Source of the DNA: Candidatus Hinthialibacter antarcticus
Lineage (GTDB): Bacteria > Hinthialibacterota > Hinthialibacteria > Hinthialibacterales > Hinthialibacteraceae
Direction of reading: 5' to 3'
Assembly: GCA_030765645.1 (NCBI GenBank)
Contig: JAVCCE010000001.1
Location: 62,001 to 126,000 of the forward strand
Length of the DNA stretch: 64,000 nt
The notes under the pieces were generated by a model, which had not been told where the DNA came from, searched no databases, and was given only the letters and a program-made list of their open reading frames with translations. A program made the translations under genes and the position numbers. Numbering within the stretch: position 1 is the stretch's first letter; every line of letters starts with the position of its first letter. Below are positions 20,542 through 49,436 of this stretch, piece after piece.

Positions 20542-21503
20542 GATATTTTCTTCCAAACCGTTCCCACCACGGGTTCCTTCAACACGTTTCCTTCACAGCG
20601 GAGAGTTTCGATCCTGCCGCCCTCGCCGATTTCAAATCGCAATTCAATTGGCGTCGATTCCAACAAAAACACATCGCCATGAAAGGGCAACGCTTTCATC
20701 TGAAAGGCGTCGTCAAACTGCAACCCGTTCTCATTCGCCAAAATTTTCCATTGATGGCCGCTGCTTGTTTCCTGATACGTCCCCGCATATTCATCCAACG
20801 GGCGCGTGGGCGCCGCCGGGCCTTGATAGTCGCTATCTGATACAAAGCGTGAAATATCGTGCAAAATCACGCTCCAATTATCCTCTGACGTATTCATTTG
20901 AATTTTCTCGAATGTGCTGGCTTCGAATAGCGCATCGGTGATCGTTCGGAATTCAACATACGCCTCGATCAATTGATCGAACGAACCAACGCCGTGCGCC
21001 TTGCCGTAGGCCGTTTGCGAAAACTGATCGAGCAGATACTGGTCGAACCCTTCGCCCCGCCTGGCTGCGATACGGCGCAACGCCGCGCCAACGTCGGGTT
21101 GAACAAAATAGACCAGCTGCGCATTGACCGCTGAGAAACACTCTTCAAACTGCTGTACAGCCTGCAGAATTTCGTCCTTGCCCTGGTTCATCCGAAACAG
21201 GCAACCCGCAAAGAGTTGGTAGATGCAACTTTCAAACAAATGGATCTGCCCATCGTTATTCAATTGGTTCACAAATTCCGCCGCGCGGTCCAAGACTTGC
21301 TCAACCGCCGCTTCGGGCGGCGCCTGGTTCTGTAATGCAAATTCCACTTCGCGGCTCTCGACAACCGGGTGCGGCGCCGCATGTTCGTAATACCACTTCG
21401 CATCGGCCCCCTTACGCAGCAGATCGAGATAGATCAACTGCGAGGTGGTCGATTTGCCCGAACCGGAAATTCCATCAAAAAAGATCACATTCAATTTCTG
21501 CAT
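20538..21503 (-). CDS. P-loop NTPase (small-molecule or nucleotide kinase-like) with C-terminal lipocalin-like domain, embedded in the PKS operon
   Basis: The N-terminal ~200 residues are a P-loop kinase fold. FFDGISGSGKST (residues 8-19) is the Walker A loop, followed by a helix and WYYEHAAPHPV, similar to thymidylate-kinase-like and unassigned small kinases. FESCIYQ and QLVYFVQP sit where core strands of that fold are expected. Residues ~235-321 form a separate beta-rich domain starting LDEYAGTYQE, like the lipocalin-type domain (DUF3471) seen after some beta-lactamase-family proteins. No substrate can be named. Its place between PKS genes, with AAGGA five bases before the ATG and an ATGA overlap with the next PKS, shows that it belongs to the pathway. 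Possible roles are phosphorylating the product for self-protection or as a tailoring step; this is inference. Confidence 0.75.
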   Translation of the reverse strand: MQKLNVIFFDGISGSGKSTTSQLIYLDLLRKGADAKWYYEHAAPHPVVESREVEFALQNQAPPEAAVEQVLDRAAEFVNQLNNDGQIHLFESCIYQLFAGCLFRMNQGKDEILQAVQQFEECFSAVNAQLVYFVQPDVGAALRRIAARRGEGFDQYLLDQFSQTAYGKAHGVGSFDQLIEAYVEFRTITDALFEASTFEKIQMNTSEDNWSVILHDISRFVSDSDYQGPAAPTRPLDEYAGTYQETSSGHQWKILANENGLQFDDAFQMKALPFHGDVFLLESTPIELRFEIGEGGRIETLRCEGNVLKEPVVGTVWKKIS

Positions 21504-31542: not shown

Positions 31543-32838
31543 CTAAACCACTTTGGCGCGGCTTTGGCGCAAATGCGCAAAGCGCTCTTCACCCAACAAC
31601 GCCGTCAAACAAGCCTGAATCACTGAAACGCCTTCGCGCAAAACTTCCTCTTCAATAGTCAGACACGGTAGAAATTTCACCACCGTGCTTTTGGCGCCGC
31701 ACAGTTCAATCATCACGCCTTCATCAAACGCGCGACGCGCTAGCGCCCGCGCCAGTTCCGCATTTTTCAAATCCAACCCGTAGATCATACCGCAGCCGCG
31801 CAATTCAAAATTGAAATCCTGATAGGTGGTCTTAATTGATGTTAATAATGATTGCAGCAGTTCGCCGGTCTTGTTGATCGAAGCAGCGAATGCGTCGTCT
31901 TGCCAATATGTAAGCGCTTCCGTAGCGGCGACAAACGCCAGGTTATTGCCGCGAAAGGTTCCGGTGTGCTCGCCGGGTTTCCATAGATCGAGATGGGGGC
32001 GTAGGAACAACATCGCCATCGGCAGGCCGAAGCCGCTCACCGCTTTTGAAAACGCCACCATGTCAGGCTCAATGCCGACTGGCTCGAAGCTGAAGTAATA
32101 CCCAGCGCGTCCGTTGCCGACCTGTACATCGTCGACGATGATTAAAATCTCATGTCGGCGGCAGATGGTTTGTAAGCGCCGCAGCCACTCATGCGACGCA
32201 ACCCGCACCCCGCCCTCCGCCTGGATGGTTTCAATCACGACCGCAGCGGGCAAACCGAGGCCGCTGCCAGGGTCGTCTAATTTGCGCTCAAAATAGTCGA
32301 GCGTATCAACGCCGGGGCCCATATAGCCGTCAAACGGCATGAAGACAACGTCCTGTCGATTGATGTATTCCTCACGCCGGTAAAACGCATTGCCGGTCAC
32401 TGCCAACGCGCCCGCCGAAAGCCCGTGATAACCGTTGGTGAAGGCGACAATGTTGCTGCGGCCAGTCGCCAGCCGCGCCAACTTCAACGCCGCCTCAACC
32501 GCATTGGCGCCCGACGGCGCGACGAACTGCGCTTTGTAATCCATCTTGCGCGGCTGAAGAATGATGCTCTCCAGGCGTTCGAGATAGCGCTGTTTCGCCG
32601 CCGTGAACATATCCAGCGAGTGCATGATTCCGTCGTGTTGCAAATACTCGATCACAGCGTTCTTCATGCGAGGGTTGTTGTGCCCATAGTTCATGGTCCC
32701 GGCGCCGCAAAAGAAATCAATGTAGCGCTTGCCGCTGACGTCATACACAAAGGGGCCTTGGGCTTTATCAAACACAACCGGAAACGCCCGGCAATACGAA
32801 CGCACATTGGATTCAATCCGTTCAAAAATTTCCATCAT
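31543..32838 (-). CDS. Class III PLP aminotransferase, EctB / diaminobutyrate aminotransferase-like
   Basis: The 431-residue protein has the full length and motifs of the diaminobutyrate-2-oxoglutarate aminotransferases (EctB group). These are SGKRYIDFFCGAGTMNYGHNN near 36-56 (signature seen in pieces), PSGANAVEAALKLAR near 110, the GYHG motif near 138, the acidic pair in VDDVQVG near 240, and the PLP lysine in AFSKAVSGFG near 270. Such enzymes make L-2,4-diaminobutyrate from aspartate semialdehyde. Within the operon it directly abuts the TE-containing NRPS gene (no gap; AAGGA before the ATG) and precedes the FAAL loading gene, so it probably supplies a building block or aminates an intermediate. 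No A domain visible in the window reads as Dab-specific, so the consuming module may lie upstream, or the substrate may differ. Confidence 0.88.
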   Translation of the reverse strand: MMEIFERIESNVRSYCRAFPVVFDKAQGPFVYDVSGKRYIDFFCGAGTMNYGHNNPRMKNAVIEYLQHDGIMHSLDMFTAAKQRYLERLESIILQPRKMDYKAQFVAPSGANAVEAALKLARLATGRSNIVAFTNGYHGLSAGALAVTGNAFYRREEYINRQDVVFMPFDGYMGPGVDTLDYFERKLDDPGSGLGLPAAVVIETIQAEGGVRVASHEWLRRLQTICRRHEILIIVDDVQVGNGRAGYYFSFEPVGIEPDMVAFSKAVSGFGLPMAMLFLRPHLDLWKPGEHTGTFRGNNLAFVAATEALTYWQDDAFAASINKTGELLQSLLTSIKTTYQDFNFELRGCGMIYGLDLKNAELARALARRAFDEGVMIELCGAKSTVVKFLPCLTIEEEVLREGVSVIQACLTALLGEERFAHLRQSRAKVV

Positions 32839-35800
32839 CTATCCTTTTACGCCTAATATTTTCTCAATGATGCCGGACAGGATTTTTGCATTGTCTTCAA
32901 CATACGGGCTATAGAGCAAATCATTATGCCCGCCAACGCCCTGGTAAGTCTGAAACGTCCCGCTTGTTACGTCCGCCCATCCCCGCTTGTTTGACAAGAC
33001 GCGGCCAAAGTTGTCTGTATACACATCGTGAGAACCATCGCACAACAAAAGATGGATATTCGTCTTCACCTGATGATGATCGACCGAGCGCTCAAAGTAG
33101 TGATATGCGCTCAGAATGATTCGACGCGCTTTTTCGACCAACACCGCATTCGTCAAATAGGGACGGTTGCTTTCATGCGACAAAAAGCCTGAAATCACAT
33201 CTTCCACTTCCTGTTTTTCAAATTGCATCGGCTCCATTTTACGGCCAGAATCCACCATGATGATATCACTGACGGTTTTTCCGCGTTGTTCAAATTCACG
33301 CGCCGCGTGATAGGCCAGGTTTCCGCCGGATGAATAGCCGAACAATATATAAGGGCCGTCCGCGTCGATCTCTTCAACAAGGTCAACATATTTCGACAAG
33401 CGGTTTTCGTGTTCGATAAAGTTGAAACCGTAAAATGCGACCTGTTTCAGCTGTAGCGCGATTTGCATAAACCCCGCCGCGTCGCCCGTCCCCGGTGGAA
33501 ACGCAAACAGGTTGGCCTTGCCTCCGGCGGCGTTTAACAAGACGCGCGGCTCATCAATTTCTTTGCAGCCGAATTTCGCATAGTCCATCAACGCCGAAGC
33601 CAGTTGGCGAATGGTGGGGCGATCAAAAATTGTCGCCAATGGAACCACCACGCCTGTACGTTGGTGGATGCGCGAAACCAGTTTTGATATTTTCAGGCTA
33701 TGTCCGCCTGAATCAAAAAAGTTATCGTGTACGCTCGGGTTTTGATATTCGAGCGCTTCGGCCCAAGCCGCCGCCAGTTGCGCCTCCATCTCATTTTGGG
33801 GCGCTTCATAATCGCGCCCCGGCGCCATGTTTAATTCACCCGGGTCAGGCAAGGCGTTTCGGTCTACCTTGCCGTTTTGCGACAAGGGAAACGAATCCAG
33901 TTGCAAAAAATGACCGGGTACCATAAAGTCCGGCAGCGAATGTTTGAGCGATTCGCGCAAATTGCTCACGTCTTGGGTTTCATCCGAGGTGAAATAGGCA
34001 GCGAGCAACAATTGACCATCGCGCAATTCTTTGACCAACACCACCGCTTCTTTAATCACGCCAAGTTCACGCAATACGTTTTCAATTTCCAGCGGCTCGA
34101 TGCGGTGTCCGCGAATCTTCACCTGATCGTCGATCCGGCCCAGATATTCCACCACGCCGTCTGAACGCCAGCGCCCCAGGTCGCCCGTTCGATACAAGCG
34201 CTCGCCAGACGGCATTGGACTAGTAATAAATTTTTCCGCATCCAACTCAGGCGCGTTGAGATACCCCCGCGCCAGCCCATCGCCGCCAGTGCAAATCTCT
34301 CCCGGAACGCCGACGGGCGTGAGTTCAAAATTTTCATCGAGAACCACGACACAGCTATTCGAAACCGGGCGCCCGATGGGGATATCGCTGTCATAATCCT
34401 GATCAATCTTAAAAGTCGTTGTAAACGTCGTGTTTTCGGTCGGGCCGTAACAATTCCAGATTACAAGTTGAGGAAAGCGGCGCCGCGTCATCGTGATGTG
34501 GCGCGGTGAAAGTTTTTCGCCGCCGGTGAACAACATTCGCAGACCGTCAAACATATCAATGTTGGTTTCAACCATCTGGTTGAACAAACTTGAGGTAAGC
34601 CAGATCATTGTCGTCTGGTGTTTTTTTAGCAGCCGCTTTAATTCGGCGGCGTCGAGAATGGCGTGTTTGGCGGGGCGGCACAAGCGCCCGCCGTGCAACA
34701 ACGCGCCCCAAAATTCTAGCGTGGAGGCGTCAAACGCAATCGCCCCGGTTTGAAGAATGCGGTCATTTGCGGTGAATTCGATGTGGTTCGTATTGCAAAC
34801 GAGGCGCACGATAGAGCGGTGTTCGATCATCACTCCTTTAGGCCGCCCGGTGGTGCCGGAGGTATACATAATATACGCGAGGTTTCTTGGCCCGCTGCAT
34901 TCGTCTATCGGGCCGCAGGCAAGTTCCGCGTAAGCCCGCTGGTCAAGCTGGTTTTTATGGCGCTGCGGCGGCGATGCGGCAGTTGGCTTTTTTTTATTTA
35001 TACGGATTAATGCATCATAGCCATATTCTGACAATTCACTTTTGTGCTCGCCAAGCATGAAGGAAAACTCGATGGACTCAATCTCCGGCATGTCCACGCG
35101 CAGATCGCTGAAAAAGTCGCGATTCAAAAACAATGCTTCCGCATGTTCAATGGTGGTGCGGTCGCCGCGCTGCGCCTGTTCGCGTTGATACTGTAATAGC
35201 GATTGGATAAATTGGTCTCTGAGGTCTTGGTCCCACACGTTGCCGAGAAAAATGTATCCCTCATCGCTCATTGTATCGACGGCTTTACGCAGCACATCGC
35301 GAAAATAATTGTGCCCGCTAAAACATTGCAACACGCTGTTGATGATGACGAAATCAAATTGGTCTTCTTCCAACTTGTCGGTGTCATGCGCGGGCAAATG
35401 GACCAAACGAATATTATTCGCGCCGCGCCGTTCACATTCGTTGCGCGTCCAGTTTAAAATTTCATTTGAGAGGTCCGTACCGCAATAATGCCCCGCCAAC
35501 GGCGCCAGGCGAAACATGCTGATGCCGGACGAACAGCCGATTTCCAAAATGCGCGAGTCGGGTTTGAGCATCGGTTTCAATTTGATTAACACATTGTCGC
35601 CGTATTCGTCCATCACCTCGCGATCAAGCCAATCGCCGGTGTAGCTGCTCTTCCAGCCGCCGCCGGAAATATCATCAAACATGGTGGAGCCGACATAATC
35701 CCACACGTCTTCTCGCATAAACTCGCCCTGCGTTTCGATCTCGCCGAAAAAGTCGTCACTATCGGCGCAAACGACAGTTTGCAAATATGGGCATTCCCAC

Positions 35801-36252
35801 TGCAAGATGTTGATGTCGCGAATGAAGCGCTTTTCTGAAAACAAAACCGGCGCCCGGGCGTCGTTCAACATGTACTTCATCCGCTCCAGCGGCGTATCGG
35901 AATCAATCGGAAAATACGCGCCGCCCGCTTTAAGAGCGCCCAGCACGACCGACATCATTTCAAAACTTTTTTCGAGCATAAACGCGATGAATGGCTCCGG
36001 CGGGAGTTCCAGCCCGATCAAAAAACGCGCGATGCGGTTCGAGGCTTCGTCGAGTTGGCGGTAGGTATATTCCTGTTCATCATCCGCCAATGCGATTGCG
36101 TCCGGCGATTGCGCCGCGATCTCAACAAACAGCGCGTGGACGCTTTTATCGCGGGGATAATCAGTTTGATTATCGTTAAAGGCGCGCATCTGCTCTAGCA
36201 AATCGCTTTTTTCCACATCATTCGCCAAGAAATTAAAATCGCCTATCTTCAT
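32839..36252 (-). CDS. Terminal NRPS: A domain interrupted by a methyltransferase (between A2 and A3)-PCP-TE
   Basis: This 1137-residue protein lacks a condensation domain and begins with the first part of an A domain (to GALKAGGAYFPID, motif A2, near 110). A methyltransferase follows (~150-400; ILEIGCSSGIS near 234, FDFVIINSVLQCF). The A domain resumes at motif A3, YTSGTTGRPKG near 465, and ends at NGKVDRNALP near 795. PCP (SGGHSLK near 848) and thioesterase (~900-1137; GYSSGG near 975, FAFPPGTGD) complete it. My reading of the specificity code is D-A-L-W-F-G-C-T-F-K, closest to valine-type pockets. Methyltransferases inserted at A2-A3 in other systems act on side chains or the alpha carbon rather than on nitrogen. 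The missing C domain is at the end of the preceding protein, with an ATGA overlap between the genes. The TE makes this the release point. Confidence 0.93.
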   Translation of the reverse strand: MKIGDFNFLANDVEKSDLLEQMRAFNDNQTDYPRDKSVHALFVEIAAQSPDAIALADDEQEYTYRQLDEASNRIARFLIGLELPPEPFIAFMLEKSFEMMSVVLGALKAGGAYFPIDSDTPLERMKYMLNDARAPVLFSEKRFIRDINILQWECPYLQTVVCADSDDFFGEIETQGEFMREDVWDYVGSTMFDDISGGGWKSSYTGDWLDREVMDEYGDNVLIKLKPMLKPDSRILEIGCSSGISMFRLAPLAGHYCGTDLSNEILNWTRNECERRGANNIRLVHLPAHDTDKLEEDQFDFVIINSVLQCFSGHNYFRDVLRKAVDTMSDEGYIFLGNVWDQDLRDQFIQSLLQYQREQAQRGDRTTIEHAEALFLNRDFFSDLRVDMPEIESIEFSFMLGEHKSELSEYGYDALIRINKKKPTAASPPQRHKNQLDQRAYAELACGPIDECSGPRNLAYIMYTSGTTGRPKGVMIEHRSIVRLVCNTNHIEFTANDRILQTGAIAFDASTLEFWGALLHGGRLCRPAKHAILDAAELKRLLKKHQTTMIWLTSSLFNQMVETNIDMFDGLRMLFTGGEKLSPRHITMTRRRFPQLVIWNCYGPTENTTFTTTFKIDQDYDSDIPIGRPVSNSCVVVLDENFELTPVGVPGEICTGGDGLARGYLNAPELDAEKFITSPMPSGERLYRTGDLGRWRSDGVVEYLGRIDDQVKIRGHRIEPLEIENVLRELGVIKEAVVLVKELRDGQLLLAAYFTSDETQDVSNLRESLKHSLPDFMVPGHFLQLDSFPLSQNGKVDRNALPDPGELNMAPGRDYEAPQNEMEAQLAAAWAEALEYQNPSVHDNFFDSGGHSLKISKLVSRIHQRTGVVVPLATIFDRPTIRQLASALMDYAKFGCKEIDEPRVLLNAAGGKANLFAFPPGTGDAAGFMQIALQLKQVAFYGFNFIEHENRLSKYVDLVEEIDADGPYILFGYSSGGNLAYHAAREFEQRGKTVSDIIMVDSGRKMEPMQFEKQEVEDVISGFLSHESNRPYLTNAVLVEKARRIILSAYHYFERSVDHHQVKTNIHLLLCDGSHDVYTDNFGRVLSNKRGWADVTSGTFQTYQGVGGHNDLLYSPYVEDNAKILSGIIEKILGVKG

Positions 36253-39200
36253 TGTTTCTCTTCCTGCGTTTCGCTGCGCGTGGATTGCATGAAGCGGCCC
36301 ATCGCGTCCAAGAGCCGACGGATGGACGCCGGTTCAAACCGCGCCGAGTCGTATTCCATATTCAATTCTAAACCGTCGTCGCTTTCTGATGCGAACAGCG
36401 TCAAGTCAAATTTTGACGTGTTGAATTCCAAATCAAATTCACTCACGCTGGCGGCTTTCGTCTTGTTCATTTCAACGCCGTTCGGCTTCTCTACGTCTAA
36501 CTGAATGTCAGAAAAATTCTGATAACCGTATACGACGTTCACCAAGGGCTGCCGCGAAGCGGCGCGGTGCGGGTTCATTTTTTGCACCAGCAAATCGAAG
36601 GGATACTCCTGGTGCTCATAGGCCGAATTGGCGGCGTCCATCACCCGCGTAAGCAGTTCGTCAAAATCCAACTGCGCAGAGGCGCGCACCCGGACGGGAA
36701 GAATATTCACGAAGAAGCCAATCAAACCTTCGAGGTCGGGATGCGTCCGGTTGGCGATGCTGACGCCGACGCAGAGGTCATCCTGCCGCGTCCATTGATA
36801 GAGCAAAACGTAGAAGAAGGCCAATACAACATTCGATAAAGTCGTGTTGTTTGACTGCGCCAAACCACGCAGCGCCGCGACAGTCGGCGCATCCAGAACC
36901 AATTGCTCCGTACCGCCTTGATAGTCTTGCTCAGCGGCGGGGCGGTCATACGGCAGCCGCACCGATTCCGGTTTGCCTTTCAGTTGCTCAAGCCAGTAGG
37001 CTTCGTGCGCGTTCAGGCTGCGTGAATTTTGCCATAGCGCGAAATCCTTATATTGTATGCGCAGCGGTTGGATTGCGGCTTCGCGCCCATCCTGGTTCGC
37101 CTGATAAAACGTCAGCAGATCGCGGAACAATACCTGCATCGACCAGCCGTCGCCGATGATATGGTTGACCGTCAAAACAAAGACGGCGCGGCTGGGATCC
37201 AGCAGGATCAACGTCCCGCGCAACAACGGCGGGCGGGCCAGATCAAACGGCGTATGCGCATCTTTTTCGGCAAGTTGTCGCGCAGCGTTTTCGACATCCG
37301 CTTCATTTTCAAAACAAATCACCCGAACCGAAAACTCAACATTGTCATGGACAACTTGTTTCGGTTCGCCGTCAATTTCAACGAAGCCCGTCCGTAACGC
37401 CTCATGCCGTTTCAGCAATTGGTTGAACGCCCGGTTGAGCGCATCGACGTTCACCTCGCCCTCAAGCAGAAGCGCCTTGGGCATGTTGTAAGCCGCCGTC
37501 GCGTCTTCGCCGCCCGCGCGTTGAATAAACCACAACCGTTTTTGCGCGAACGATAATTCGTAATATTCCTGAGACGGCGCTGGTTCTATCGCCTGGAACT
37601 CATCGCGCTCGCTTTGCCGTATTAACACCGCCAGTTCGGCAATGGTTGGGTGTTCAAACAAATCGCGCAGCGCCAGTTTGACGCCGAGGCGTTTGTGAAT
37701 GCGCGACACGGTTTGCATGGCTTTCAGGCTATGGCCGCCGATGTCGAAGAAGCGGTCGCGAACGCCAATCGAAGCAGTATTCAACACTTCGCGCCAGATA
37801 TCGGCCAGTTGTTGTTCGGTCTCATCACTGGGCTGGTCGAGCGCATCCTCTGCATTTTGCTCTTGCTGTGGCAGCGGCAAAACGCGCTTGTCAGTTTTAC
37901 CGCCCGGCGAAAGCGGGATGGCGTCAAGTTGCATCCAATAACGCGGCACGCAATAGTCGGGCAGGCGTTTCGCCAACGCGGCGCGTAGCGGTTTTGTATC
38001 CGGCTCGCCCTCCGCAACAAAATACGCAACCAGTTCCGGCTCGCCCTGGCGCACATCGCGCAGCGCGACTGCGGCTTGAACAACGCCGGGCAGCGCTTGA
38101 ATCTGTTGTTCAATCTCGCCCAGTTCAACGCGATAGCCGCGCACTTTCACCTGGTCGTCATTACGGCCCAAATAATCCAGTTCGCCGTCATCAAGCCAGA
38201 CGCCCACGTCTCCGGTGCGATAGAGCGTTTCGTCCGCCGCGAATGGGTTCGCGATGAATTTCTCTTGAGTCAAATCATCGCGATTCAGATAGCCGCGACC
38301 AACCCCCGCGCCGCCGATATAAATCTCGCCCGCCTCGCCAACCGGCGCCGGACGCATCCAACCATCCAGAACATAAACCTGGGTGTTATGAATCGGCTTT
38401 CCAATTAAGACGCGCTCGTCCTTCGGCGAAATTTCTTTCACGATGCAGCCGACGGTGGTTTCGGTCGGCCCGTACTCATTGACCACCCGCATCGACGGAT
38501 TGAGTTGATGCAAATAGCGTACGCAATCCATCGGCAGCGCCTCGCCGCCGACAATCGCCAGGCTGACATCGGTCTGTTGAATATTGAGTTCTTTGAGCAC
38601 GGAAATATGCGACGGCGTCAGTTTGACGCAATCAAAGCCGCTCCCAGGCTCGAACATTGCCGCCAACAGATCGGGCGTCTCTTCTTCTTGACCGAATACA
38701 TGCAGCGTCTTACCGCGCAGCAGCGGCAAAAACAAACTGGTGACGGTCATGTCAATCGAGATCGACGAATGCAGCCCCATCACCCCGCCGTCGCGTTCGC
38801 CGTAATAATAGTCGTTCGCCCAATGGAGATAATGCGAAAGGTTGCGGTGTTCGATCAAACACCCTTTCGGAAGCCCGGTCGAACCGGACGTATAAATCAC
38901 ATACGCCAAGTCTTGCAGACGCGGGTTCACGCCCGGTTCATCCGTTGACGCGCCGTTGATTTCATTCGCCAATAAAAGCGGGCGCCCGACGGCATTGAGA
39001 CGCGCTGCATACTTCGCCTCAGTGATGACAACTTTGCAGCCGCTGTCTTGAATAACATGTTCAATGCGCGCATCCGGCGCGGTTGGGTCAATCGGGACAT
39101 ACGCCGCGCCTGATTTCAACACGCCCAGAATCGCGGCAACCATCGCATCCGAACGGCCCATCAACACGCCGACCAGGTCATCTGCGCCAACCTCATATTT

Positions 39201-42200
39201 TTGAATCAACGAATTCGCAAACGGGTTCGCCTGTTGGTTCAGCGCAGCGTAACTTAATGAATGCGTTTTTATTTTCAACGCAATCGCTTCGGGTTCAGAA
39301 TGAACGCGTATTAAAAAGTCATCAACAATTGTTGTTTGCGAGGCTGCGGTCCGGGTTGCATTCCATTGATTGACAACCAGGCCATATTCGGGTCCAGACA
39401 AGATAGAGAATTGCTTGACTTGCAGGCCGGGGTTCTGCGCCATGCGCTCAAACGCCGCCTTTAATTGTTTCACCAACCAGGCGATGCGCGTCTCTTCATA
39501 CGCGGCGCCGTTGTAATGCAATTTCAGTTGCAACCGGGCGCCGGGCGCAACGATGAGATTGAGATCGTAATGGGTTTGATCAAAGTTCTCGATTTGATCA
39601 ATCGTCCAATGCGCCTCGCTGTCATCTTCAACTTCGATGGAATCCAGTTCGGTCGGATAATTCGCAAAGATCATCAACACGTCAAACAAGTCGCGTTCGC
39701 CGCCCGACAGCGCTTGAATGTCCGCCAGTGGATAATATGAATACGCTTCGGATTCGAGCGTTTGGTTTTGAATAATTTTCAACGCATCAGAGACCGTATG
39801 GTTTCCATCAAACCCAGCGCGAACCGGGATCGCATTAATGAACAATCCCAGCATGTCTTCGACGCCTTCAACATCCGCCGCGCGTCCCGAAACAATCGAC
39901 CCCATCATCACGTCGTCGCGGCCCGCGTGTTGTTGCAGCGCCAACGCCAGCCCCGTTTGGACCACAGTATTCAACGTCACGTTGGCGTTTGACGCGACAG
40001 CCTGAAGCGCCGCAGTCAATTCTTCATCTAATGTGATTTCGGCTTTTTTGAATTGATAACTTTCGTCGCTTGCATTACGTCGTTTCGCAATCGTGGCGGC
40101 GGGCTCATAGCCTTCGACCCACTTCGCCCAATAGGCTTGCGCCTGTTCTGCGTCTTGACTTTGCAACCAGGCGATATAGTCGCCGTAGCGCGGCGGTGAA
40201 TTCAACTCCGCTGCACCCTCGCGAGCAAAGCCGCCGTATAACTGATAGAGTTCTTGATAGACAATACGAAGACACCAGCCGTCCAACAGCAAATGGTGAT
40301 AACTCCAGATGACTTGATATTGCGTTTCGTTTAATTGGTAAACGTGAATGCGCATCAATGGATCATGGGTGAAATGAAATCCGCGCCGCCGTTCGTCTTC
40401 TTGTTTTTGTTGAATCAATACGTCTTGTTGTTCTGAGGGCAACGCCGCGATTGATTCAAAATTCCATTCCGGCTCGCGTTGTTTCAATACAATCTGCAAG
40501 GGCGATGCAACCCCGTCATAAACAAAGGCGGTGCGAAAAATCGCATGACGTTGGCACAATTCAAACCACGCTTGGCGAAACGCTTCAACCGACAACCCGC
40601 CATTCAGCCGAAACGACATTTGCAGAAAATAGGCCTGCGATTCAGGCTGATAGAGCGACTGAAACAACAAGCCCTGCTGCATAGGCGACAAGGGATACAC
40701 ATCTGCAATTTCACTGGCGCGCCAGCCGTTCGTTTCCAGCAGTTCTTCAAATTGAACAAGCGACAAAGAACATCCCGTGCAATCTGACGGCGTTAATTCT
40801 GACATCGTTTGACGGCTGCAATGATTGCTGACCACGTTGAGTTGTTCTCGAAACGCTTGCAAAAATTGTTCGACCGTTTCTTTTTGATGGCGGCGCTTGT
40901 TATAAATCGCCGATAACGCCATACGCCCACTGGCGACCAGGGCGATTATTTCTATATCGAAGTCGCGCTGTAAACGAGCGCCCAGCGTCTTGCCGCACGG
41001 TTCATCCACAATCGAGAACAGGCCTTCGTTTCCATCGGCGTCAAACTGCCCCAGATAGTTGAAACTCAGTTGCGACGGCGGCGCCTCAATCTCTTCGATT
41101 TTCGCTAGATGGCGCAACACGCCATAGCCCATCCCTTTGCGCGGAACCGCCCGCAGCGCTTCTTTGGTTTCTTTGATCTGCTGCGCCAGCGAGTCGCTCT
41201 CTACTCGAAGCAAAAATGGAAACATCGAGGTAAACCAGCCAACAGTGCGGCTGATGTTGATGGGTCGCGACAGCGCTTCGCGTCCGTGGCCTTCAAGCGT
41301 AATCCAAAACGCATCGCCGCTAGTCCAATCGCTCAGAGCGCGCGCTAATGCCGTCAACAACAGGTCGTTCATCTCCGTTGAATAAGCGCGGTGCGAACGC
41401 GTCAACAATTGCTCGGTTTCGTCATTCGACAGTTCAAGTTGAATCACGTCGCAATCGCCGTAAACATTCGCGTCCGCGTCGCCGTCCAGCGGCAGCGCCG
41501 TTGCAGGTTGAGTTAGTGCGCTGCGCCAATAGTCCGTTTCCTGCAACAGGGCGCCATCTTGCGAAAACACATGAAGCGCCTCTGCCCATAGTTGATACGA
41601 AGCCGTTTTTTGAGGCAACACCGGCTGCGCGTTATGCGACCGCGCCTGATAGGCCGTCTCTAAATCTTCCAGGAGAATGCGCCACGAAACGCCGTCAACC
41701 ACAAGGTGATGAACGATCCATAAAATCCGGTCGCCGCTCGACGTACGATAGAGCGCTGCTTTCATCAACGGCGTGTTTTGCAAATCAAAGCCCGCCTGCG
41801 CAGACTGCGCGTGAAGTTCAACTGCGGCGGTTTCATCGGTCTCGCCGCAGCAATCCACCACCTCGAAATCAATGGGAACGTCCAGTCCACGATTGTATTG
41901 CTGATAGGCGCCGCGCGGCTGATGAAACTGCATGCGCAACGCGTCATGGTGGCGCCAGATATCCTTAAACGCCTCTTTTAAGGCATCAGCGTCTATTGCT
42001 TGCAACGGTTTCAACATCACCGATTGATTGAAGTGATGAATGTCGTCATCATGCCCGTCAAAAAACCATTGCTGAATCGGCGCGAGTTTCACTTCGCCTT
42101 CAATAACTTCATCGGCGGTTTCTTCGACTTGCGCGGCGCTCAACCTCGGCGCCAGTTCCGCGACAGTCAGGTATTGAAACAAATGGCGAATCTCCGCCTG

Positions 42201-45200
42201 CCAACCCAACTGGCGCAAGCGGCTGACGATTTGAATCGCGCGGATCGAATCGCCGCCCGCCTCAAAATAATTATCATGCACGCCAAGGGCCGGGCGCCCC
42301 AACACCGAACGCCAAACGTCGAGTAACGCCTGTTCGGTTTCGTTGCGCGGCGCGGCGTCTTTGGATGAAGCCGTATCCAAGCCGCCGGGTTCAGGTAATT
42401 TCTTGCGATCAATTTTTCCATTACGGTTCAGCGGCAGCCGCTCTAACTCGACCCACCGAGACGGAACCATGTAATCCGGCAGTTCCTTCGACAAACGCTC
42501 GCGCAACTGCGCCGCAGAAACGGAACGCGCCGCTGCGTAATACGCAACCAGTTCTTTGGTCCCCACCGAAGTCAAACGCGCTTCGACCGCCGCCTGGTCG
42601 ATCTCATCAAACGCCTGCAAGCGAATTTCAATTTCGCCCGGCTCCACCCGAAAGCCGCGGACCTTCACCTGGTTGTCGATGCGTCCAATAAACGAAACGG
42701 TTCCATCATCGTTCCAAACGCCCTGGTCACCGGTTTTATACATACTCGCGCCGGAGCGAAACGGGTCAGCAACAAATTTCTCACGCGTCAGCGCATCGCG
42801 ATTCAAATAGCCGCGCGCCACGCCGTCGCCGCCCACGCAGATCTCGCCCGGGACGCCAACCGGCTGCGGGCCGCCATGCGCATCAAGAATATAAACCGTC
42901 GAGTTGGCGATGGGCATTCCAATCGGCGCATCGCCGACTTGTTCGCGTTCAATCGAATAATACGTCGAGAAGGTGGTGTTTTCGGTCGGGCCATACACAT
43001 GCAGCATAGACAAGTCTGGGCAATGGGCGCGGACGCGGTTGATATGTTTGACGGAAACCTTTTCGCCGCCCGTCAACAAAACCCGCAGCGAACCAAACAT
43101 ATTAATTTGCGCTTCGGCGTATTGATTGAATAAACTTGTGGTCAGAAACAAAATGCTAACCCGGTTCGTTTCAATCAGAGCCGCCAAGCGGGCCGGTTCA
43201 AGCAGGTCGTCTTCATGCGGCATACACACGCTGGCGCCGTTGAGCAACGCGCCCCAGATTTCAAAAGTAGAGGCGTCAAACGAAAGCGATCCGGTTTGCA
43301 AGATACAATCGCTCTGATTGATTTGAATGTAATTGGTGTTTTTGACCAAACGCGTAATCGAACGCTGCTCAATTAGCGAACCCTTGGGTTCGCCCGTTGA
43401 ACCAGAGGTGTATATCACATACGCCAAACTCGAACCATCGGTTTGCGTTGACGGATTTCCAGACAGTTCGCCTTCGACTTGCGCCGCGTCGACCCAATGG
43501 ATGTCCGTTAAAATTGTCGAATAAGTCTCAATCAGCGCTGCGTCTGAGAGAACAATGCGGCATTGCGCGTCTTCAACCATATATTGAATACGCGACTGGG
43601 GATACGCCGGGTCCAGCGGGACATACGCGCCGCCCGCCTTCAAGATCGCCAACGCTGCAATCACCGGCCCTTGCGAGCGCTCCATCAACACCCCCACGCA
43701 TTCTTCCGGCTGCAGCGCATACTCGACGCACAGCCGCGTCGCCAGCGCGTTGCCTTTTTGGTTGAGCTGCTGGTACGTCAACTTATCATCGCCGCAGATC
43801 AGGGCGGTTGCGTTCGGTGTTTGTTCGGCCTGACGTTCAAACAGCTCCGCAACGCTCAATGTTTTTGGATAATCCGCCGCAGCGTCATTAAAGTTTTCTA
43901 TCACCCGCCGCCGTTCATCATCAGACATAACCGGCAGTGAATGCAGCGCCTTCTGCGGCGCAGCAAGGGCGGATGCAACCAACGCGCAAAAGTGACGCGC
44001 CATGCCTTCAATGCGTCTCGGTTCAAACAGGTCAGCGTTATATTCAATGCCGACGCCGCACCGCCCGTTTGGTAATTCACTAAAGAAAAAAGTCAAATCA
44101 AATTTGCTGATCGCAGAATGCAGCGGATACGCTTCAATCGCTACCGCGTTGCCATCTTGCGTTTGTTGATTATGCAACGTCACCGCGACATCAAACAGCG
44201 GCGAACGGCTCAAGTCGCGATGCAGTTCGAGTTCATCGACTAAACGGTCAAAGGGGTACGCCTGATAGGTGAGCGCCTGGGCGACTGCGTCGCGCGTCTG
44301 TTCGAGCAACCCGGCAAAGCCCGCGTCGCCGTTGATGCGGCTGCGTAAGGGCAACATGTTGACGAAGAAGCCAACCAGCCCTTCCAGGTCGGCGTGTTCA
44401 CGCCCTGCGACCGGCGAGCCAACCACGACATCATCTTGGTTCGCATAACGAAACAGCAGCGCATAAACAGCGGCCAACACAGTCACAAACGCGCTGGCGC
44501 CACGGTCGCGACCAAACATCCACAGGCGCTGGGCCAACGCGGCTTCGAGTTCAAACGAATAGACGCCACCCGAAAAACTCTGCACCACAGGCCGGGGGCG
44601 GTCCGTCGGCAATTCTAAAACGGAAACTTCATCCTTAAATTGATCGAGCCAGAAACGCCGGGCGCTTTCGACGCCGTTGGATTGCAGCCATTCTTTCTGC
44701 CAGACAGCGTAATCTTTATATTGCAAACGCAATCCGGCCAGCGGCGAAGGTTGTTTGCGGCGGTGGGCCTCGTATAGTTGCGCCCATTCATCCAGCAAGA
44801 CATTCATCGACCAGCCGTCGCTGATACTGTGATGGATGCTGAACAAAACGATGTTGCGTTGTTCAGCAAACCGAAACAGCGCGACGCGAAACAGCGGCCC
44901 ATTCGCTAAATCAAACGGCTGATTGGTTTTGCTGAGGATTAATTCGCGTTCATCATCTTCACGTAACAAAGCGCTGCGCTGGTCAAAGATTTCAAAGGGA
45001 ACATCAATGGCGTCTTGCACAACTTGCCAAGGTTCATCATGCTCTTCGACAATAACAGTGCGCAGCGATTCATGCCGCGCAATCAACAAGCCCAGCGTCT
45101 CGCGCAACGCCTCCGCGTCCAGGTCGCCGGGCGCGCGAAACGCTTCTGAAATCATATAGGCGAGGCGGTTGGCGCCCATGCGCTCAATCAGCCACAAGCG

Positions 45201-48200
45201 GCGCTGTCCATGCGAAAGCGGATACCGCGCCGCACCCGGCGCGGGTTCGATATGACGGAACGCTTCAAGGTGGCCCGGCTCAATCGCCTGCGCCAACCCC
45301 GCAAGAGTTGGATGTTGAAACACCAGCCGCAGCGGGATTTTCACATTCATCTCTTGATGAATTTTCGCGACCAATTGCGTCGCTTTCAAACTATGCCCGC
45401 CGCGTTCAAAGAAATTATCAAACGCGCCGATGTCTTCGCGTTCTAACACGCTGCGCCACAACCCGGCGAGGCGTTCTTCTTTCTCATTGCGGGGCGCGAC
45501 AAATTGCTGGTGATCGCGTTGAGCGTTCTTCGCCAGCGCAGCCAGCGCCTTACGGTCGATCTTTCCATTCGCCGTCAGTGGAAATTCCTCCACAAAAATA
45601 TACGACGACGGCGCCATGTAATCCGGCAGCAGCGGCGCAATTGTTTTACGAATTTCCTTCGCGAACGAAGACTCGCCGCACCATGACGGATTTATACCAT
45701 CGAGGTTTGATTGTTTTATCTCAGTAACATTTCGATCAGTCCGCAAAGCGAATACGTTGTATAAATTGGTATTTTGCAGCAAGGCGTCTTGTTCAATCTG
45801 CAGGCTGAATCCACGCTGCTTTAATACGTTCGTCACTGTATCCAGGCGCCCGTTAACGTCATGCACTTCGATGACAACCTGCGCGATTTTGTCCCAATCG
45901 CGTTCGTCAATGCCGAGCAACACTTCTAACTCGCTTTGTTCGACATCGACCTTCAACAGGTCGATACGCTCAATGGACTGTTCGCGAATCACGTTCGACA
46001 GCGTCTCCAAGCGGCAGTCAAATTCCTGCGACTGCATGCGCTCTTCCAACAGGTCTTCGAGCGCGGCGTCGGTAATTTCACGCCCTTGCGCAGTGAGTTC
46101 ATTCACCAGATAGGTTTTAACGACTTCGCGCACTTCACCGGAGTCAACGCCCTTGCCTGAAACCACGGTGTTATATGGAAAATAGACAAAACGCGCTTGG
46201 CCCGGCTTATCAGACAATCCCATTTCAAATGCGCGCGACGGCGGCGAATACCATTGCAAGTTTTTGCGCAGGCATTCATACACTGGAGGGATCGGTTCAA
46301 ACGAATAGAGCGTAATGTTTTTTTCTTGCAGCGCCGCGAAGACAGAAAACAACCCGATGTTTCCGCCCACATCAACGATGCAATCGCCGTCATGAATTTC
46401 GATGCCGTATTTTAAATATGCATTGTGAGTAAAAATTTCTTCATAAAGAAAATCCGACTCGCTTTTGTTTTGATGAGCAATGGTCAACCCGTTCGGCAAT
46501 TCATAAATCAACGAAGCATCATCTGGAATTTCATGTATAGAACGCAAGATGCGCTTCAGCGGCGCCGCCTTGTCGGGGTCGGGCGCGATGTAGGCGACCA
46601 ACTGCATCGACGTCGCGTCGTCGCCTTGCGCCAACGCAACGCATCGGTCAACGGCGGGGTGCTTGGCGACAGCGCTTTCGATTTCGCCGAGTTCCACTCG
46701 AAAGCCGCGCACTTGCACCTGGTCGTCATTGCGGCCCAGATGTTCAAGGCGCCCGTCCGCAAACCACCGCCCCACATCGCCGGAACGGTACAAGCGACCC
46801 GGCGACTCAAATGGGTTTTCAATAAAACGCTCTCGGGTCAATGGCTCGCGGTTGAGATATTCGCGGCAGACCCCGTCGCCTCCCACTAAAATTTCACCCG
46901 CAACGCCCGGCGGTTGCAATTGCAGCGCGTCATTACAAACAAAGACGGTCGTCCCCGGGATAGGCGTTCCAATCGGGCTGACGCCCGCCGCGCCAAACAC
47001 GTCGCGCGGTTGAATTTCATAATAAGTCACATGCACAGTGGTTTCGGTGATGCCGTACATGTTAATTAGTTTAATTTCGTTGAGCGGGTAGCGTTCCACC
47101 CAGGGGCGCAAGTAGGTCGCTTCCAGGCGGTCGCCGCCGAAAATCACATAGCGCAAATGCGGGTCGAGCGAATGCGCTTGCGCGCGCACTTCTTGCGCGA
47201 TCAAGTTATAAAATGCAGCAGGCGTCTGGTTCAACACCGTGACCCGATGGCGCCGCAAGAGTTCATGAAACGCCTCGACGTTGCGCACTTCATCACGCGG
47301 CGCGACCACCAGTTTGCCGCCGTACAGCAAGGCGCCGTACATTTCCCAAACCGAAAAATCAAAGCAAAACGAATGAGCGACCACCCACACGTCATCTTCA
47401 TTAAAGTCGAATGGATGCCGATCATTCACCATCAGCCGGACAACGTTACGGTGAGTGACCACGCACCCCTTGGGCTTGCCGGTCGAGCCGGAGGTATAGA
47501 TCACATAGGCTGCGCTGTCGGGTGTAAGCGGCGAAGCCGCTTCGCTCGCATCCTCATTCGCGGTTTCATGCACGTCAACGCACAACAGCGACGGCGCCAG
47601 TTCGCGCAGCGTTGATTGATGATGCGTTTCGCTGACCACCAGACGGCAGCCGCAATCGTCCAGCATGAACCGGATGCGTTCTTGTGGATACGTTGGATCA
47701 ACCGGGACATACGCCGCTCCGGCTTTTTGCACGCCGAGAATCACGGCGACCATCCAATCCGAACGATCCAAAAAGATGGCGATGCGCTCATCAAAACCAA
47801 GTTGAATCTCACGCTGAATACGCCGGGCGATTTGGTTGGCGCGTTGATTGAGTTCTCTATAAGTAAGCGACTGCTCGCCAAATACAACCGCAGTGCGCTC
47901 CGGCGTTTTTTTCGTTTGTTCTTCAAATAACGAAAGAATGGTCGCCGTTTCAGGATACGCAGCCGGGGTCGCGTTCCACTCATAAATCATTCGCCGCGCT
48001 TCATCATCACTCACGATGGGGTGGTGATTGATCGGCGCCTCGGGTTGCGCTGCGACGCCGTCCAACAAGCGGGAGAAATGGGCGCCCATCCGCTGAATGG
48101 TTTCTTCTGAAAATAAATCCGTGTTGTAATTGATGCGAAACAACAACCCGTCCGGCGATTCGGTAAAATCAAAAATCAAATCAAATTTGGCGGTATCAAA

Positions 48201-49436
48201 GCCGCTCTCCAATGATTCACCTGTCGCTTCGCCTAATCGAAACGCGCCGGCGCCCTCATGTTGAAGCGAAATGACCACATCGAACAAATGCGAACGGCTT
48301 GGGTCGCGCGTGGTTTCGAGATCGCTCACCAATTGGTCGAAGGGATAATCCTGATGGGCGATGGCTTCCGTCACGGTGGCCTGGACGCGATTCAGCAATT
48401 CGACAAACGAACCATCGCCGCATACGCTATCGCGCAAGCAAAGCGTGTTCACAAAAAAGCCGATCATATTTTCAACGTCAGGATGCGTCCGCCCCGCGAA
48501 GGGCGCACCGATGACGAGGTCGTCCTGTCCGCTGTAGCGATACAAAAATGTTTTGACCAGCGCGGTCAAAGTTACAAACAAAGAGGCTTGTTGTTTTTGC
48601 CCCAATGTTTGAATTGCTGCAAACGCATCAGGATTCAGCGGGCAGGTAACCGTGGCGCCCGCATTGGTTTGCACGACGGGGCGGGGATAATCCAACGGCA
48701 GGTCTAAACGCGGCAGGTCGCCCGCCAGTTTTTGATGCCAATAGGTCTTGAGCGGTTCTAACGCATCGCCGGACAGTTTTTTATTTTGCCACGCAGCGAA
48801 ATCTTTATATTGAATCTTCAGCGGCGCCAGCGGCGATTCGCGCTTTTGCAACCGCGCCTCATAGGCCGCGCTCAGTTCGCTGATTAAGATACCCAGCGAC
48901 CATTCATCGCAAATGATGTGGTGCAGATTAAACAGAAACACATGCGCGTCTTCGCCGATGCGCAACACTTTGGCGCGCAACAAAGGCCCACGCTGCAAAT
49001 CAAACGAATGCGCCGCTTCGCGTAAGGCCCAGTCTTTCGCCGCCTGCATCGGGTCTGCGCTGTCTGTCAAATCAACGATCTCTTCGTCCAGAGAAATTTC
49101 ATCATGAATAAACTGGCGCACTTCTCCATCGGGCGAACCGAACGTCGTCCGTAGGGCTTCATGGCGCTGAATGATTTCACGCAGCGCGCCCCAAAAAAGA
49201 GAGGCGTCAAATTGACCGCGCAGCACAATCGAGCCGGGCACGTTATACGCCGTCGAGCCTTCGTTCATGCGGTCCAGCAGCCACAGGCGTTCTTGCGCAT
49301 GAGAAACCGCATAGCCCTTACGCGCGCGTTTCTTCTGCTCGAAAAAACCGCTGTCGCGCAGTTCTTGCAGCGCCTTTTGGTCGCCTGCTTTGGCGCGTTG
49401 TTTTAATTGCTCAATGGCCGCCGGGTTCAAATTCAC
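36249..49436 (-). CDS. Multimodular NRPS: C-A(FkbM)-PCP-C-A-PCP-E-C-A-PCP-C
   Basis: This 4395-residue protein starts at a GTG with AGGAG just upstream. Domains by approximate residue: C1 45-490 (HHIICDEWS); A1 495-1300, code D-F-W-N-I-G-M-V-H-K = Thr, carrying an FkbM-type methyltransferase (VDVGGNIGLFS near 1022, LLKVDVEQSELEVL near 1165) after motif A8; PCP1 1345; C2 1410-1830 (HHSISDGWS); A2 1870-2345, code D-A-F-F-L-G-V-T-F-K, Ile/Val-like; PCP2 (GGDSIRA, E-type) 2393; E 2455-2855 (HHLVVDGVSW, TVGWFTSMFP); C3 2915-3340, DCL type (SPMQQGLLF, HHLLLDGWC); A3 3375-3850, code D-M-T-K-I-G-E-V-G-K, Asn-like; PCP3 3904; C4 3960-4395 with NHIIGDG in place of HHxxxDG. It would add O-methyl-Thr, a D-branched-chain residue and Asn. 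The final C works with the A domain of the next protein. Confidence 0.95.
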   Translation of the reverse strand: MNLNPAAIEQLKQRAKAGDQKALQELRDSGFFEQKKRARKGYAVSHAQERLWLLDRMNEGSTAYNVPGSIVLRGQFDASLFWGALREIIQRHEALRTTFGSPDGEVRQFIHDEISLDEEIVDLTDSADPMQAAKDWALREAAHSFDLQRGPLLRAKVLRIGEDAHVFLFNLHHIICDEWSLGILISELSAAYEARLQKRESPLAPLKIQYKDFAAWQNKKLSGDALEPLKTYWHQKLAGDLPRLDLPLDYPRPVVQTNAGATVTCPLNPDAFAAIQTLGQKQQASLFVTLTALVKTFLYRYSGQDDLVIGAPFAGRTHPDVENMIGFFVNTLCLRDSVCGDGSFVELLNRVQATVTEAIAHQDYPFDQLVSDLETTRDPSRSHLFDVVISLQHEGAGAFRLGEATGESLESGFDTAKFDLIFDFTESPDGLLFRINYNTDLFSEETIQRMGAHFSRLLDGVAAQPEAPINHHPIVSDDEARRMIYEWNATPAAYPETATILSLFEEQTKKTPERTAVVFGEQSLTYRELNQRANQIARRIQREIQLGFDERIAIFLDRSDWMVAVILGVQKAGAAYVPVDPTYPQERIRFMLDDCGCRLVVSETHHQSTLRELAPSLLCVDVHETANEDASEAASPLTPDSAAYVIYTSGSTGKPKGCVVTHRNVVRLMVNDRHPFDFNEDDVWVVAHSFCFDFSVWEMYGALLYGGKLVVAPRDEVRNVEAFHELLRRHRVTVLNQTPAAFYNLIAQEVRAQAHSLDPHLRYVIFGGDRLEATYLRPWVERYPLNEIKLINMYGITETTVHVTYYEIQPRDVFGAAGVSPIGTPIPGTTVFVCNDALQLQPPGVAGEILVGGDGVCREYLNREPLTRERFIENPFESPGRLYRSGDVGRWFADGRLEHLGRNDDQVQVRGFRVELGEIESAVAKHPAVDRCVALAQGDDATSMQLVAYIAPDPDKAAPLKRILRSIHEIPDDASLIYELPNGLTIAHQNKSESDFLYEEIFTHNAYLKYGIEIHDGDCIVDVGGNIGLFSVFAALQEKNITLYSFEPIPPVYECLRKNLQWYSPPSRAFEMGLSDKPGQARFVYFPYNTVVSGKGVDSGEVREVVKTYLVNELTAQGREITDAALEDLLEERMQSQEFDCRLETLSNVIREQSIERIDLLKVDVEQSELEVLLGIDERDWDKIAQVVIEVHDVNGRLDTVTNVLKQRGFSLQIEQDALLQNTNLYNVFALRTDRNVTEIKQSNLDGINPSWCGESSFAKEIRKTIAPLLPDYMAPSSYIFVEEFPLTANGKIDRKALAALAKNAQRDHQQFVAPRNEKEERLAGLWRSVLEREDIGAFDNFFERGGHSLKATQLVAKIHQEMNVKIPLRLVFQHPTLAGLAQAIEPGHLEAFRHIEPAPGAARYPLSHGQRRLWLIERMGANRLAYMISEAFRAPGDLDAEALRETLGLLIARHESLRTVIVEEHDEPWQVVQDAIDVPFEIFDQRSALLREDDERELILSKTNQPFDLANGPLFRVALFRFAEQRNIVLFSIHHSISDGWSMNVLLDEWAQLYEAHRRKQPSPLAGLRLQYKDYAVWQKEWLQSNGVESARRFWLDQFKDEVSVLELPTDRPRPVVQSFSGGVYSFELEAALAQRLWMFGRDRGASAFVTVLAAVYALLFRYANQDDVVVGSPVAGREHADLEGLVGFFVNMLPLRSRINGDAGFAGLLEQTRDAVAQALTYQAYPFDRLVDELELHRDLSRSPLFDVAVTLHNQQTQDGNAVAIEAYPLHSAISKFDLTFFFSELPNGRCGVGIEYNADLFEPRRIEGMARHFCALVASALAAPQKALHSLPVMSDDERRRVIENFNDAAADYPKTLSVAELFERQAEQTPNATALICGDDKLTYQQLNQKGNALATRLCVEYALQPEECVGVLMERSQGPVIAALAILKAGGAYVPLDPAYPQSRIQYMVEDAQCRIVLSDAALIETYSTILTDIHWVDAAQVEGELSGNPSTQTDGSSLAYVIYTSGSTGEPKGSLIEQRSITRLVKNTNYIQINQSDCILQTGSLSFDASTFEIWGALLNGASVCMPHEDDLLEPARLAALIETNRVSILFLTTSLFNQYAEAQINMFGSLRVLLTGGEKVSVKHINRVRAHCPDLSMLHVYGPTENTTFSTYYSIEREQVGDAPIGMPIANSTVYILDAHGGPQPVGVPGEICVGGDGVARGYLNRDALTREKFVADPFRSGASMYKTGDQGVWNDDGTVSFIGRIDNQVKVRGFRVEPGEIEIRLQAFDEIDQAAVEARLTSVGTKELVAYYAAARSVSAAQLRERLSKELPDYMVPSRWVELERLPLNRNGKIDRKKLPEPGGLDTASSKDAAPRNETEQALLDVWRSVLGRPALGVHDNYFEAGGDSIRAIQIVSRLRQLGWQAEIRHLFQYLTVAELAPRLSAAQVEETADEVIEGEVKLAPIQQWFFDGHDDDIHHFNQSVMLKPLQAIDADALKEAFKDIWRHHDALRMQFHQPRGAYQQYNRGLDVPIDFEVVDCCGETDETAAVELHAQSAQAGFDLQNTPLMKAALYRTSSGDRILWIVHHLVVDGVSWRILLEDLETAYQARSHNAQPVLPQKTASYQLWAEALHVFSQDGALLQETDYWRSALTQPATALPLDGDADANVYGDCDVIQLELSNDETEQLLTRSHRAYSTEMNDLLLTALARALSDWTSGDAFWITLEGHGREALSRPINISRTVGWFTSMFPFLLRVESDSLAQQIKETKEALRAVPRKGMGYGVLRHLAKIEEIEAPPSQLSFNYLGQFDADGNEGLFSIVDEPCGKTLGARLQRDFDIEIIALVASGRMALSAIYNKRRHQKETVEQFLQAFREQLNVVSNHCSRQTMSELTPSDCTGCSLSLVQFEELLETNGWRASEIADVYPLSPMQQGLLFQSLYQPESQAYFLQMSFRLNGGLSVEAFRQAWFELCQRHAIFRTAFVYDGVASPLQIVLKQREPEWNFESIAALPSEQQDVLIQQKQEDERRRGFHFTHDPLMRIHVYQLNETQYQVIWSYHHLLLDGWCLRIVYQELYQLYGGFAREGAAELNSPPRYGDYIAWLQSQDAEQAQAYWAKWVEGYEPAATIAKRRNASDESYQFKKAEITLDEELTAALQAVASNANVTLNTVVQTGLALALQQHAGRDDVMMGSIVSGRAADVEGVEDMLGLFINAIPVRAGFDGNHTVSDALKIIQNQTLESEAYSYYPLADIQALSGGERDLFDVLMIFANYPTELDSIEVEDDSEAHWTIDQIENFDQTHYDLNLIVAPGARLQLKLHYNGAAYEETRIAWLVKQLKAAFERMAQNPGLQVKQFSILSGPEYGLVVNQWNATRTAASQTTIVDDFLIRVHSEPEAIALKIKTHSLSYAALNQQANPFANSLIQKYEVGADDLVGVLMGRSDAMVAAILGVLKSGAAYVPIDPTAPDARIEHVIQDSGCKVVITEAKYAARLNAVGRPLLLANEINGASTDEPGVNPRLQDLAYVIYTSGSTGLPKGCLIEHRNLSHYLHWANDYYYGERDGGVMGLHSSISIDMTVTSLFLPLLRGKTLHVFGQEEETPDLLAAMFEPGSGFDCVKLTPSHISVLKELNIQQTDVSLAIVGGEALPMDCVRYLHQLNPSMRVVNEYGPTETTVGCIVKEISPKDERVLIGKPIHNTQVYVLDGWMRPAPVGEAGEIYIGGAGVGRGYLNRDDLTQEKFIANPFAADETLYRTGDVGVWLDDGELDYLGRNDDQVKVRGYRVELGEIEQQIQALPGVVQAAVALRDVRQGEPELVAYFVAEGEPDTKPLRAALAKRLPDYCVPRYWMQLDAIPLSPGGKTDKRVLPLPQQEQNAEDALDQPSDETEQQLADIWREVLNTASIGVRDRFFDIGGHSLKAMQTVSRIHKRLGVKLALRDLFEHPTIAELAVLIRQSERDEFQAIEPAPSQEYYELSFAQKRLWFIQRAGGEDATAAYNMPKALLLEGEVNVDALNRAFNQLLKRHEALRTGFVEIDGEPKQVVHDNVEFSVRVICFENEADVENAARQLAEKDAHTPFDLARPPLLRGTLILLDPSRAVFVLTVNHIIGDGWSMQVLFRDLLTFYQANQDGREAAIQPLRIQYKDFALWQNSRSLNAHEAYWLEQLKGKPESVRLPYDRPAAEQDYQGGTEQLVLDAPTVAALRGLAQSNNTTLSNVVLAFFYVLLYQWTRQDDLCVGVSIANRTHPDLEGLIGFFVNILPVRVRASAQLDFDELLTRVMDAANSAYEHQEYPFDLLVQKMNPHRAASRQPLVNVVYGYQNFSDIQLDVEKPNGVEMNKTKAASVSEFDLEFNTSKFDLTLFASESDDGLELNMEYDSARFEPASIRRLLDAMGRFMQSTRSETQEEKQ

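Follow-up and report, generated by a model that had tools for sequence, protein, structure and literature searches.

According to the listing in a 2024 review, the thalassospiramide synthetase proteins TtcC and TtmB carry an a2-a3 interruption by a main-chain N-methylating domain, TioN and MarQ are a2-a3 S-methylators, and the kutzneride enzyme KtzH is interrupted at a8-a9 (PMC11355689). In the thalassospiramides, a C-terminal N-methyltyrosine closes the lactone (PMC3705361). FmoA3, a Cy-A-T module, activates alpha-methylserine itself, and no methyltransferase (MT) is listed for it (PMC11253843). A first-pass annotation of the locus described here had cited kutzneride and the FmoA3 system as examples of A2-A3 inserts, and had held that such inserts methylate the side chain or the alpha carbon and not the nitrogen. 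Both examples were discarded on the basis of this literature, since the MT of KtzH sits at a8-a9 and FmoA3 lacks one, and the general rule does not survive the listing of TtcC/TtmB as N-methylating.

The window (the whole 64-kb stretch of Candidatus Hinthialibacter antarcticus DNA that was analysed, C1:62001-126000) contains an uninterrupted reading frame, free of stops and frame breaks, for a stand-alone A-MT-A-PCP-TE subunit that lacks a condensation (C) domain of its own, as in the TtmB/TtcC type (Table 1). Motifs A4-A10, the PCP serine motif and the thioesterase motif GYSSGG were all found, and the MT lies between motif A2 (LKAGGAYFPID, 35902-35934) and motif A3 (YTSGTTGRPKG, 34834-34866) of a complete adenylation (A) domain; it is not a TioS-type A8-A9 insertion. 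In an alignment with six other A domains from the same cluster, the A2-to-A3 spacing of those domains is only about 40 residues, so the additional sequence, roughly 270-290 residues, is a true insert. The Pfam matches agree, with Methyltransf_12 at residues 236-333 (E 5.5e-13) and the AMP-binding match broken into two stretches. AlphaFold2 (pLDDT 73) likewise predicts an NRPS A domain interrupted by a Rossmann-type domain, and SrfA-C and GrsA-A are among the best PDB matches to the model. The split between A2 and A3 claimed in the first-pass annotation is therefore borne out by motif positions, alignment, Pfam and the predicted fold, and its range of 34880-35930 brackets the MT core (about 34978-35769). 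Its description of the insert as an AdoMet MT, here of class I, also stands, with the size revised from about 250 to about 270 residues.

Table 1. Features of the termination subunit and its immediate neighbours (positions in the window).
Feature	Position	Strand	Remarks
Termination subunit A(N)-MT-A(C)-PCP-TE, stand-alone, 1137 aa	32839..36252	-	Starts MKIGDF; 4-base overlap with upstream stop
Adenylation domain, N-terminal part through motif A2	35806..36165	-	Alignment with other A domains and motif positions
Inserted class I AdoMet MT (Methyltransf_12), putative backbone N-methyltransferase	34978..35769	-	Insert edges +/- about 15 residues
Adenylation domain, C-terminal part (A3-A10), pocket code DALWFGCTFK	33841..34887	-	Alignment and motifs
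PCP (thiolation) domain, DNFFDSGGHSLK	33589..33780	-	Pfam and motif
Thioesterase (TE) domain, motif GYSSGG	32914..33513	-	Pfam and motif
Unpaired C-terminal condensation domain of upstream NRPS (ORF 36249-49436)	36252..37574	-	Motif NHIIGDG; boundaries approximate
EctB-type diaminobutyrate aminotransferase	31543..32838	-	Directly after the TE-bearing subunit gene

A genome scan with the MT as query returned six close homologues with MT identities of 57-62%. Their hosts are G005 (another genus of the same family), Candidatus Parabeggiatoa, Candidatus Thiomargarita nelsonii, two Opitutaceae and one Desulfobacterales genome, and in every case the protein is a stand-alone subunit of equal layout located behind an NRPS that ends in a C domain. 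Among the 14 species of the phylum Hinthialibacterota that were scanned, no carrier beyond G005 was detected. Beyond these six, the best-known homologue is WP_014747081 from plasmid pTM1 of Tistrella mobilis KA081020-065, which has the A2-A3 insert followed by PCP-TE, 35% identity over the whole MT, and an upstream NRPS/PKS ending in a C domain. From its organism, its layout and the review, as opposed to its annotation, we take this protein (L023) to be TtmB.

The AdoMet-binding motif of the MT, EIGCSSG, is intact. Alignment of the close relatives' MTs revealed that EIGC(S/A)(S/T)G, the acidic residue of GT(D/E)LS, and NSV-x-QCF are conserved in all of them, with the remaining core likewise kept. 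The nearest MT of solved structure is the backbone N-MT of TioS (PDB 5WMM, E 3e-19), and motif IV N-S-V-x-Q, common to most A8-A9 N-MTs, is retained in the Hinthialibacter domain. Motif I reads GCSSG and not GCGTG, as might suit a structural relic devoid of activity, but we regard a relic as very improbable given that the AdoMet motifs and the whole domain persist at 57-62% identity in seven genomes from several phyla without frame breaks. A degenerate AdoMet site, which the first-pass annotation had raised as an objection to its own proposal, was thus not encountered, and to judge from the sequence the MT-bearing subunit is probably active.

The pocket code given in Table 1 is the same as that read in the first-pass annotation, where it was called aliphatic-like. 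Three of its residues (L239, F299 and C322) depart from the Val consensus, but it remains aliphatic. The homologue codes, taken from one alignment except for G005, which was read by motif, are DAFWLGGTFK in three genomes and DAFFLGVTFK in three (L032, L034 and G005). The former is listed as a Val code (PMC9113097) and the latter corresponds to Ile, sometimes Val, in cyanopeptolin (PMC2533009). Because its own code and those of its orthologues are Val/Ile-like, the A domain would be predicted to select Val or Ile. A Cys-type pocket of the TioN/MarQ class is not present, and the common Ser/Cys pocket envisaged as a second objection did not emerge. A new side-chain-methylated residue was abandoned as the leading idea, since all close orthologues read Val/Ile; the methylated residue, earlier considered unclear and perhaps new, is now pointed by the orthologue codes to N-Me-Val or N-Me-Ile. 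The solved A domain of linear gramicidin synthetase LgrA was also considered as a closer match (511 bits). However, this score adds up two A domains of about 254 bits each and carries no information on the substrate.

The subunit is best explained as the last enzyme of a PKS/NRPS assembly line, whose modules were read from the genome beyond the window as well. The modules, whose specificities except for the last are tentative motif readings, run in the order Ser-PKS, Thr, Ile-like, DIWEMTADDK (with an MT at A8-A9), Thr, PKS, then Gly or Thr, Thr/Ile-like, Ile-like, E, Asn- or Orn/Dab-like, and finally the A-MT-A-PCP-TE subunit, with which the unpaired C domain of the upstream NRPS is expected to act. 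Gene and domain order is conserved in G005 and largely so in Parabeggiatoa, Opitutaceae and Thiomargarita. The EctB-type gene adjoins the subunit gene in four of the five relatives examined (G005, Parabeggiatoa, Opitutaceae and the Desulfobacterales contig) and was not detected after it in Thiomargarita; its product is a probable supplier of diaminobutyrate (Dab) for another module. The literature searched describes no product of the cluster as found in Thiomargarita, Parabeggiatoa, Opitutaceae or Desulfobacterales.

Several other features of the region were recorded. An FkbM-type MT (PF05050, E 6.5e-13; 45804-46373, minus strand) lies within ORF 36249-49436 in the A8-A9 region of an A domain with the Thr code DFWNIGMVHK, which suggests O-methylthreonine. 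The counterpart of this module has an aliphatic-like code and no MT in G005 and Parabeggiatoa, and a Thr code and no MT in Thiomargarita. The A8-A9 MT of the DIWEMTADDK module occupies 63377-64000 and beyond, in an ORF (59270-64000) that continues upstream; the motif IV Asn is replaced by Pro here and in G005 and by Gly in Opitutaceae, and is Asn in Desulfobacterales. This MT may act on a diamino acid that the EctB-type enzyme provides. Following the cluster in the same direction are FAAL-initiated PKS genes (3786-31522, minus strand), possibly a separate or a fused cluster; in G005 no such genes were found behind the cluster. Between two of the PKS genes lies the gene for a P-loop kinase-like protein (20538-21503, minus strand) that gave a weak match to DUF3471.

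A tree was built from 40 MTs whose loci were sorted by MT-flanking motifs into 12 A2-A3 and 28 A8-A9 insertions, a small A2-A3 sample that does not include the TioN, MarQ and TtcC sequences. The two classes fall on the two sides of a single branch (support 100/100). On the A2-A3 side, all ten terminal-subunit MTs fall into one group (100/98), made up of the Hinthialibacter MT, those of its six close relatives, the Tistrella MT and those of two actinobacterial genomes. The MT of the subunit described here thus groups with that of Tistrella, apart from the A8-A9 MTs and from the internal A2-A3 MTs. All ten terminal subunits begin MK/VK-L/I, and the ORF upstream of each finishes with a C domain, whose HHxxxDG-type motif lies about 300 residues from the end. 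In the two actinobacterial genomes (L091, L092, L120, L121) the same terminal A-MT-A-PCP-TE subunit has an odd pocket code, DAK..., for which the motif reading is uncertain.

The two internal A2-A3 MTs, from Sandaracinus pSa001 and G258, lie outside the terminal group. The Sandaracinus MT (L064, L073) is in a module with a DIWELTADDK-like (Dap-like) code, in a cluster that also encodes SbnA and SbnB, and 2-amino-3-(N,N-dimethylamino)-propionic acid is a constituent of the sandarazols made by the strain; this MT is a candidate side-chain N,N-dimethylase. No match to the code DIWELTADDK was found in the literature searched. The G258 module has a Cys-like code. Since internal A2-A3 MTs are associated with Dap-like or Cys-like codes, the wider A2-A3 lineage may include side-chain methylators and may not be limited to the backbone nitrogen, whereas the terminal branch is consistent with methylation of that nitrogen. 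The terminal group and most A8-A9 N-MTs have motif IV N-S-V, which is replaced in both internal A2-A3 MTs. Its Asn was considered as a marker separating backbone from side-chain methylation, but a Dab-like A8-A9 module from Desulfobacterales (L042) keeps the Asn, so motif IV is only a hint and not proof. A broader proposal, which we put forward tentatively and with some doubt, is that a single A2-A3 MT family has had its methyl acceptor retuned several times, to the backbone nitrogen of Val/Ile/Tyr in the terminal branch, the side-chain nitrogen of Dap, and perhaps the sulfur of the Cys-like module, and that the terminal branch defines a split termination subunit belonging to an uncharacterised peptide-polyketide cluster that occurs in several phyla and also in giant sulfur bacteria.

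The side chains of Val and Ile have no oxygen, sulfur or nitrogen nucleophile for a class I MT, which makes the backbone nitrogen the likely methyl acceptor. Backbone N-methylation yielding a C-terminal N-Me-Val/Ile is the best reading of the locus, and we consider it likely. The obvious O-methylation site of the line, moreover, carries an MT of another type, the FkbM domain of the Thr-code module. Running counter to this reading, TioN and MarQ, the a2-a3 inserts that have been assayed, methylate sulfur. They lend some weight to the idea that the A domain instead takes a heteroatom-bearing residue (Cys, Ser, Dap or similar), which the MT would modify in the TioN/MarQ manner or in that of the putative side-chain N-dimethylase of Sandaracinus. 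The association of the latter with a Dap-like code, SbnA/SbnB and the dimethylamino residue of the sandarazols is in keeping with this idea, as is the EctB-type Dab aminotransferase gene next to the subunit gene. On the other hand, the code of the subunit and those of all its orthologues are Val/Ile-like, the Dab supply is accounted for by the separate DIWEMTADDK module of the same line, and the Sandaracinus and G258 MTs are excluded from the terminal-subunit group (100/98) and lack the motif IV Asn. Methylation of a side chain is therefore unlikely. As for C-alpha methylation of PCP-bound Val/Ile, which would give an alpha,alpha-disubstituted terminal residue, the alpha hydrogen of a PCP thioester is acidic but nothing speaks for it directly: no homologue in the A2-A3 lineage is known for this chemistry, the thalassospiramide relative yields N-Me-Tyr, and the FmoA3 precedent has no MT. 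We give this alternative hardly any chance.

Under the backbone N-methylation reading, the A domain would pick Val or Ile, adenylate it and load it on the PCP, where the MT between A2 and A3 would N-methylate the bound amino acid with AdoMet. As gene order suggests, the upstream NRPS would then use its terminal unpaired C domain to couple the peptide to the N-methyl residue, and the TE would free the chain, probably as a ring, in the way that the thalassospiramide lactone is closed on its C-terminal N-Me-Tyr.

The insertion site of an MT does not by itself distinguish side-chain from nitrogen methylation; in the sampled MTs it tracks MT lineage and not the methylated atom. Residue prediction by genome-mining tools is affected as a consequence. 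Naturally split A-MT-A-PCP-TE subunits also provide parts for engineering C-terminal N-methyl residues. Although this kind of subunit is already known, the cluster is conserved across phyla and uncharacterised, and the cross-phylum spread of subunit and cluster, together with the coupling of site and lineage, is of some interest.

Among described systems, TioN and MarQ share the identical insertion site, but they S-methylate Cys whereas the code here is Val/Ile-like. The A8-A9 N-MT of TioS belongs to the same MT superfamily, has motif IV N-S-V-x-Q and is the best solved-structure match, yet it sits between A8 and A9 and on the opposite side of the MT tree (100/100). The MT from the sandarazol strain Sandaracinus pSa001 shares the A2-A3 insertion and the side of the tree, and differs in its internal module, its diamino-acid-like code and its position outside the terminal-subunit group. 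TtmB/TtcC (A6-Mb-A6) has the same stand-alone A-MT-A-PCP-TE layout, the MT at A2-A3 and an upstream line ending in a C domain; the Tistrella protein even starts MKIGD, and its MT, homologous over the full length, belongs to a type listed as N-methylating. The differences are Tyr there versus Val/Ile here, the 35% MT identity and another peptide line. On sequence grounds, the best interpretation of the subunit is a termination subunit of the thalassospiramide type that N-methylates Val/Ile.
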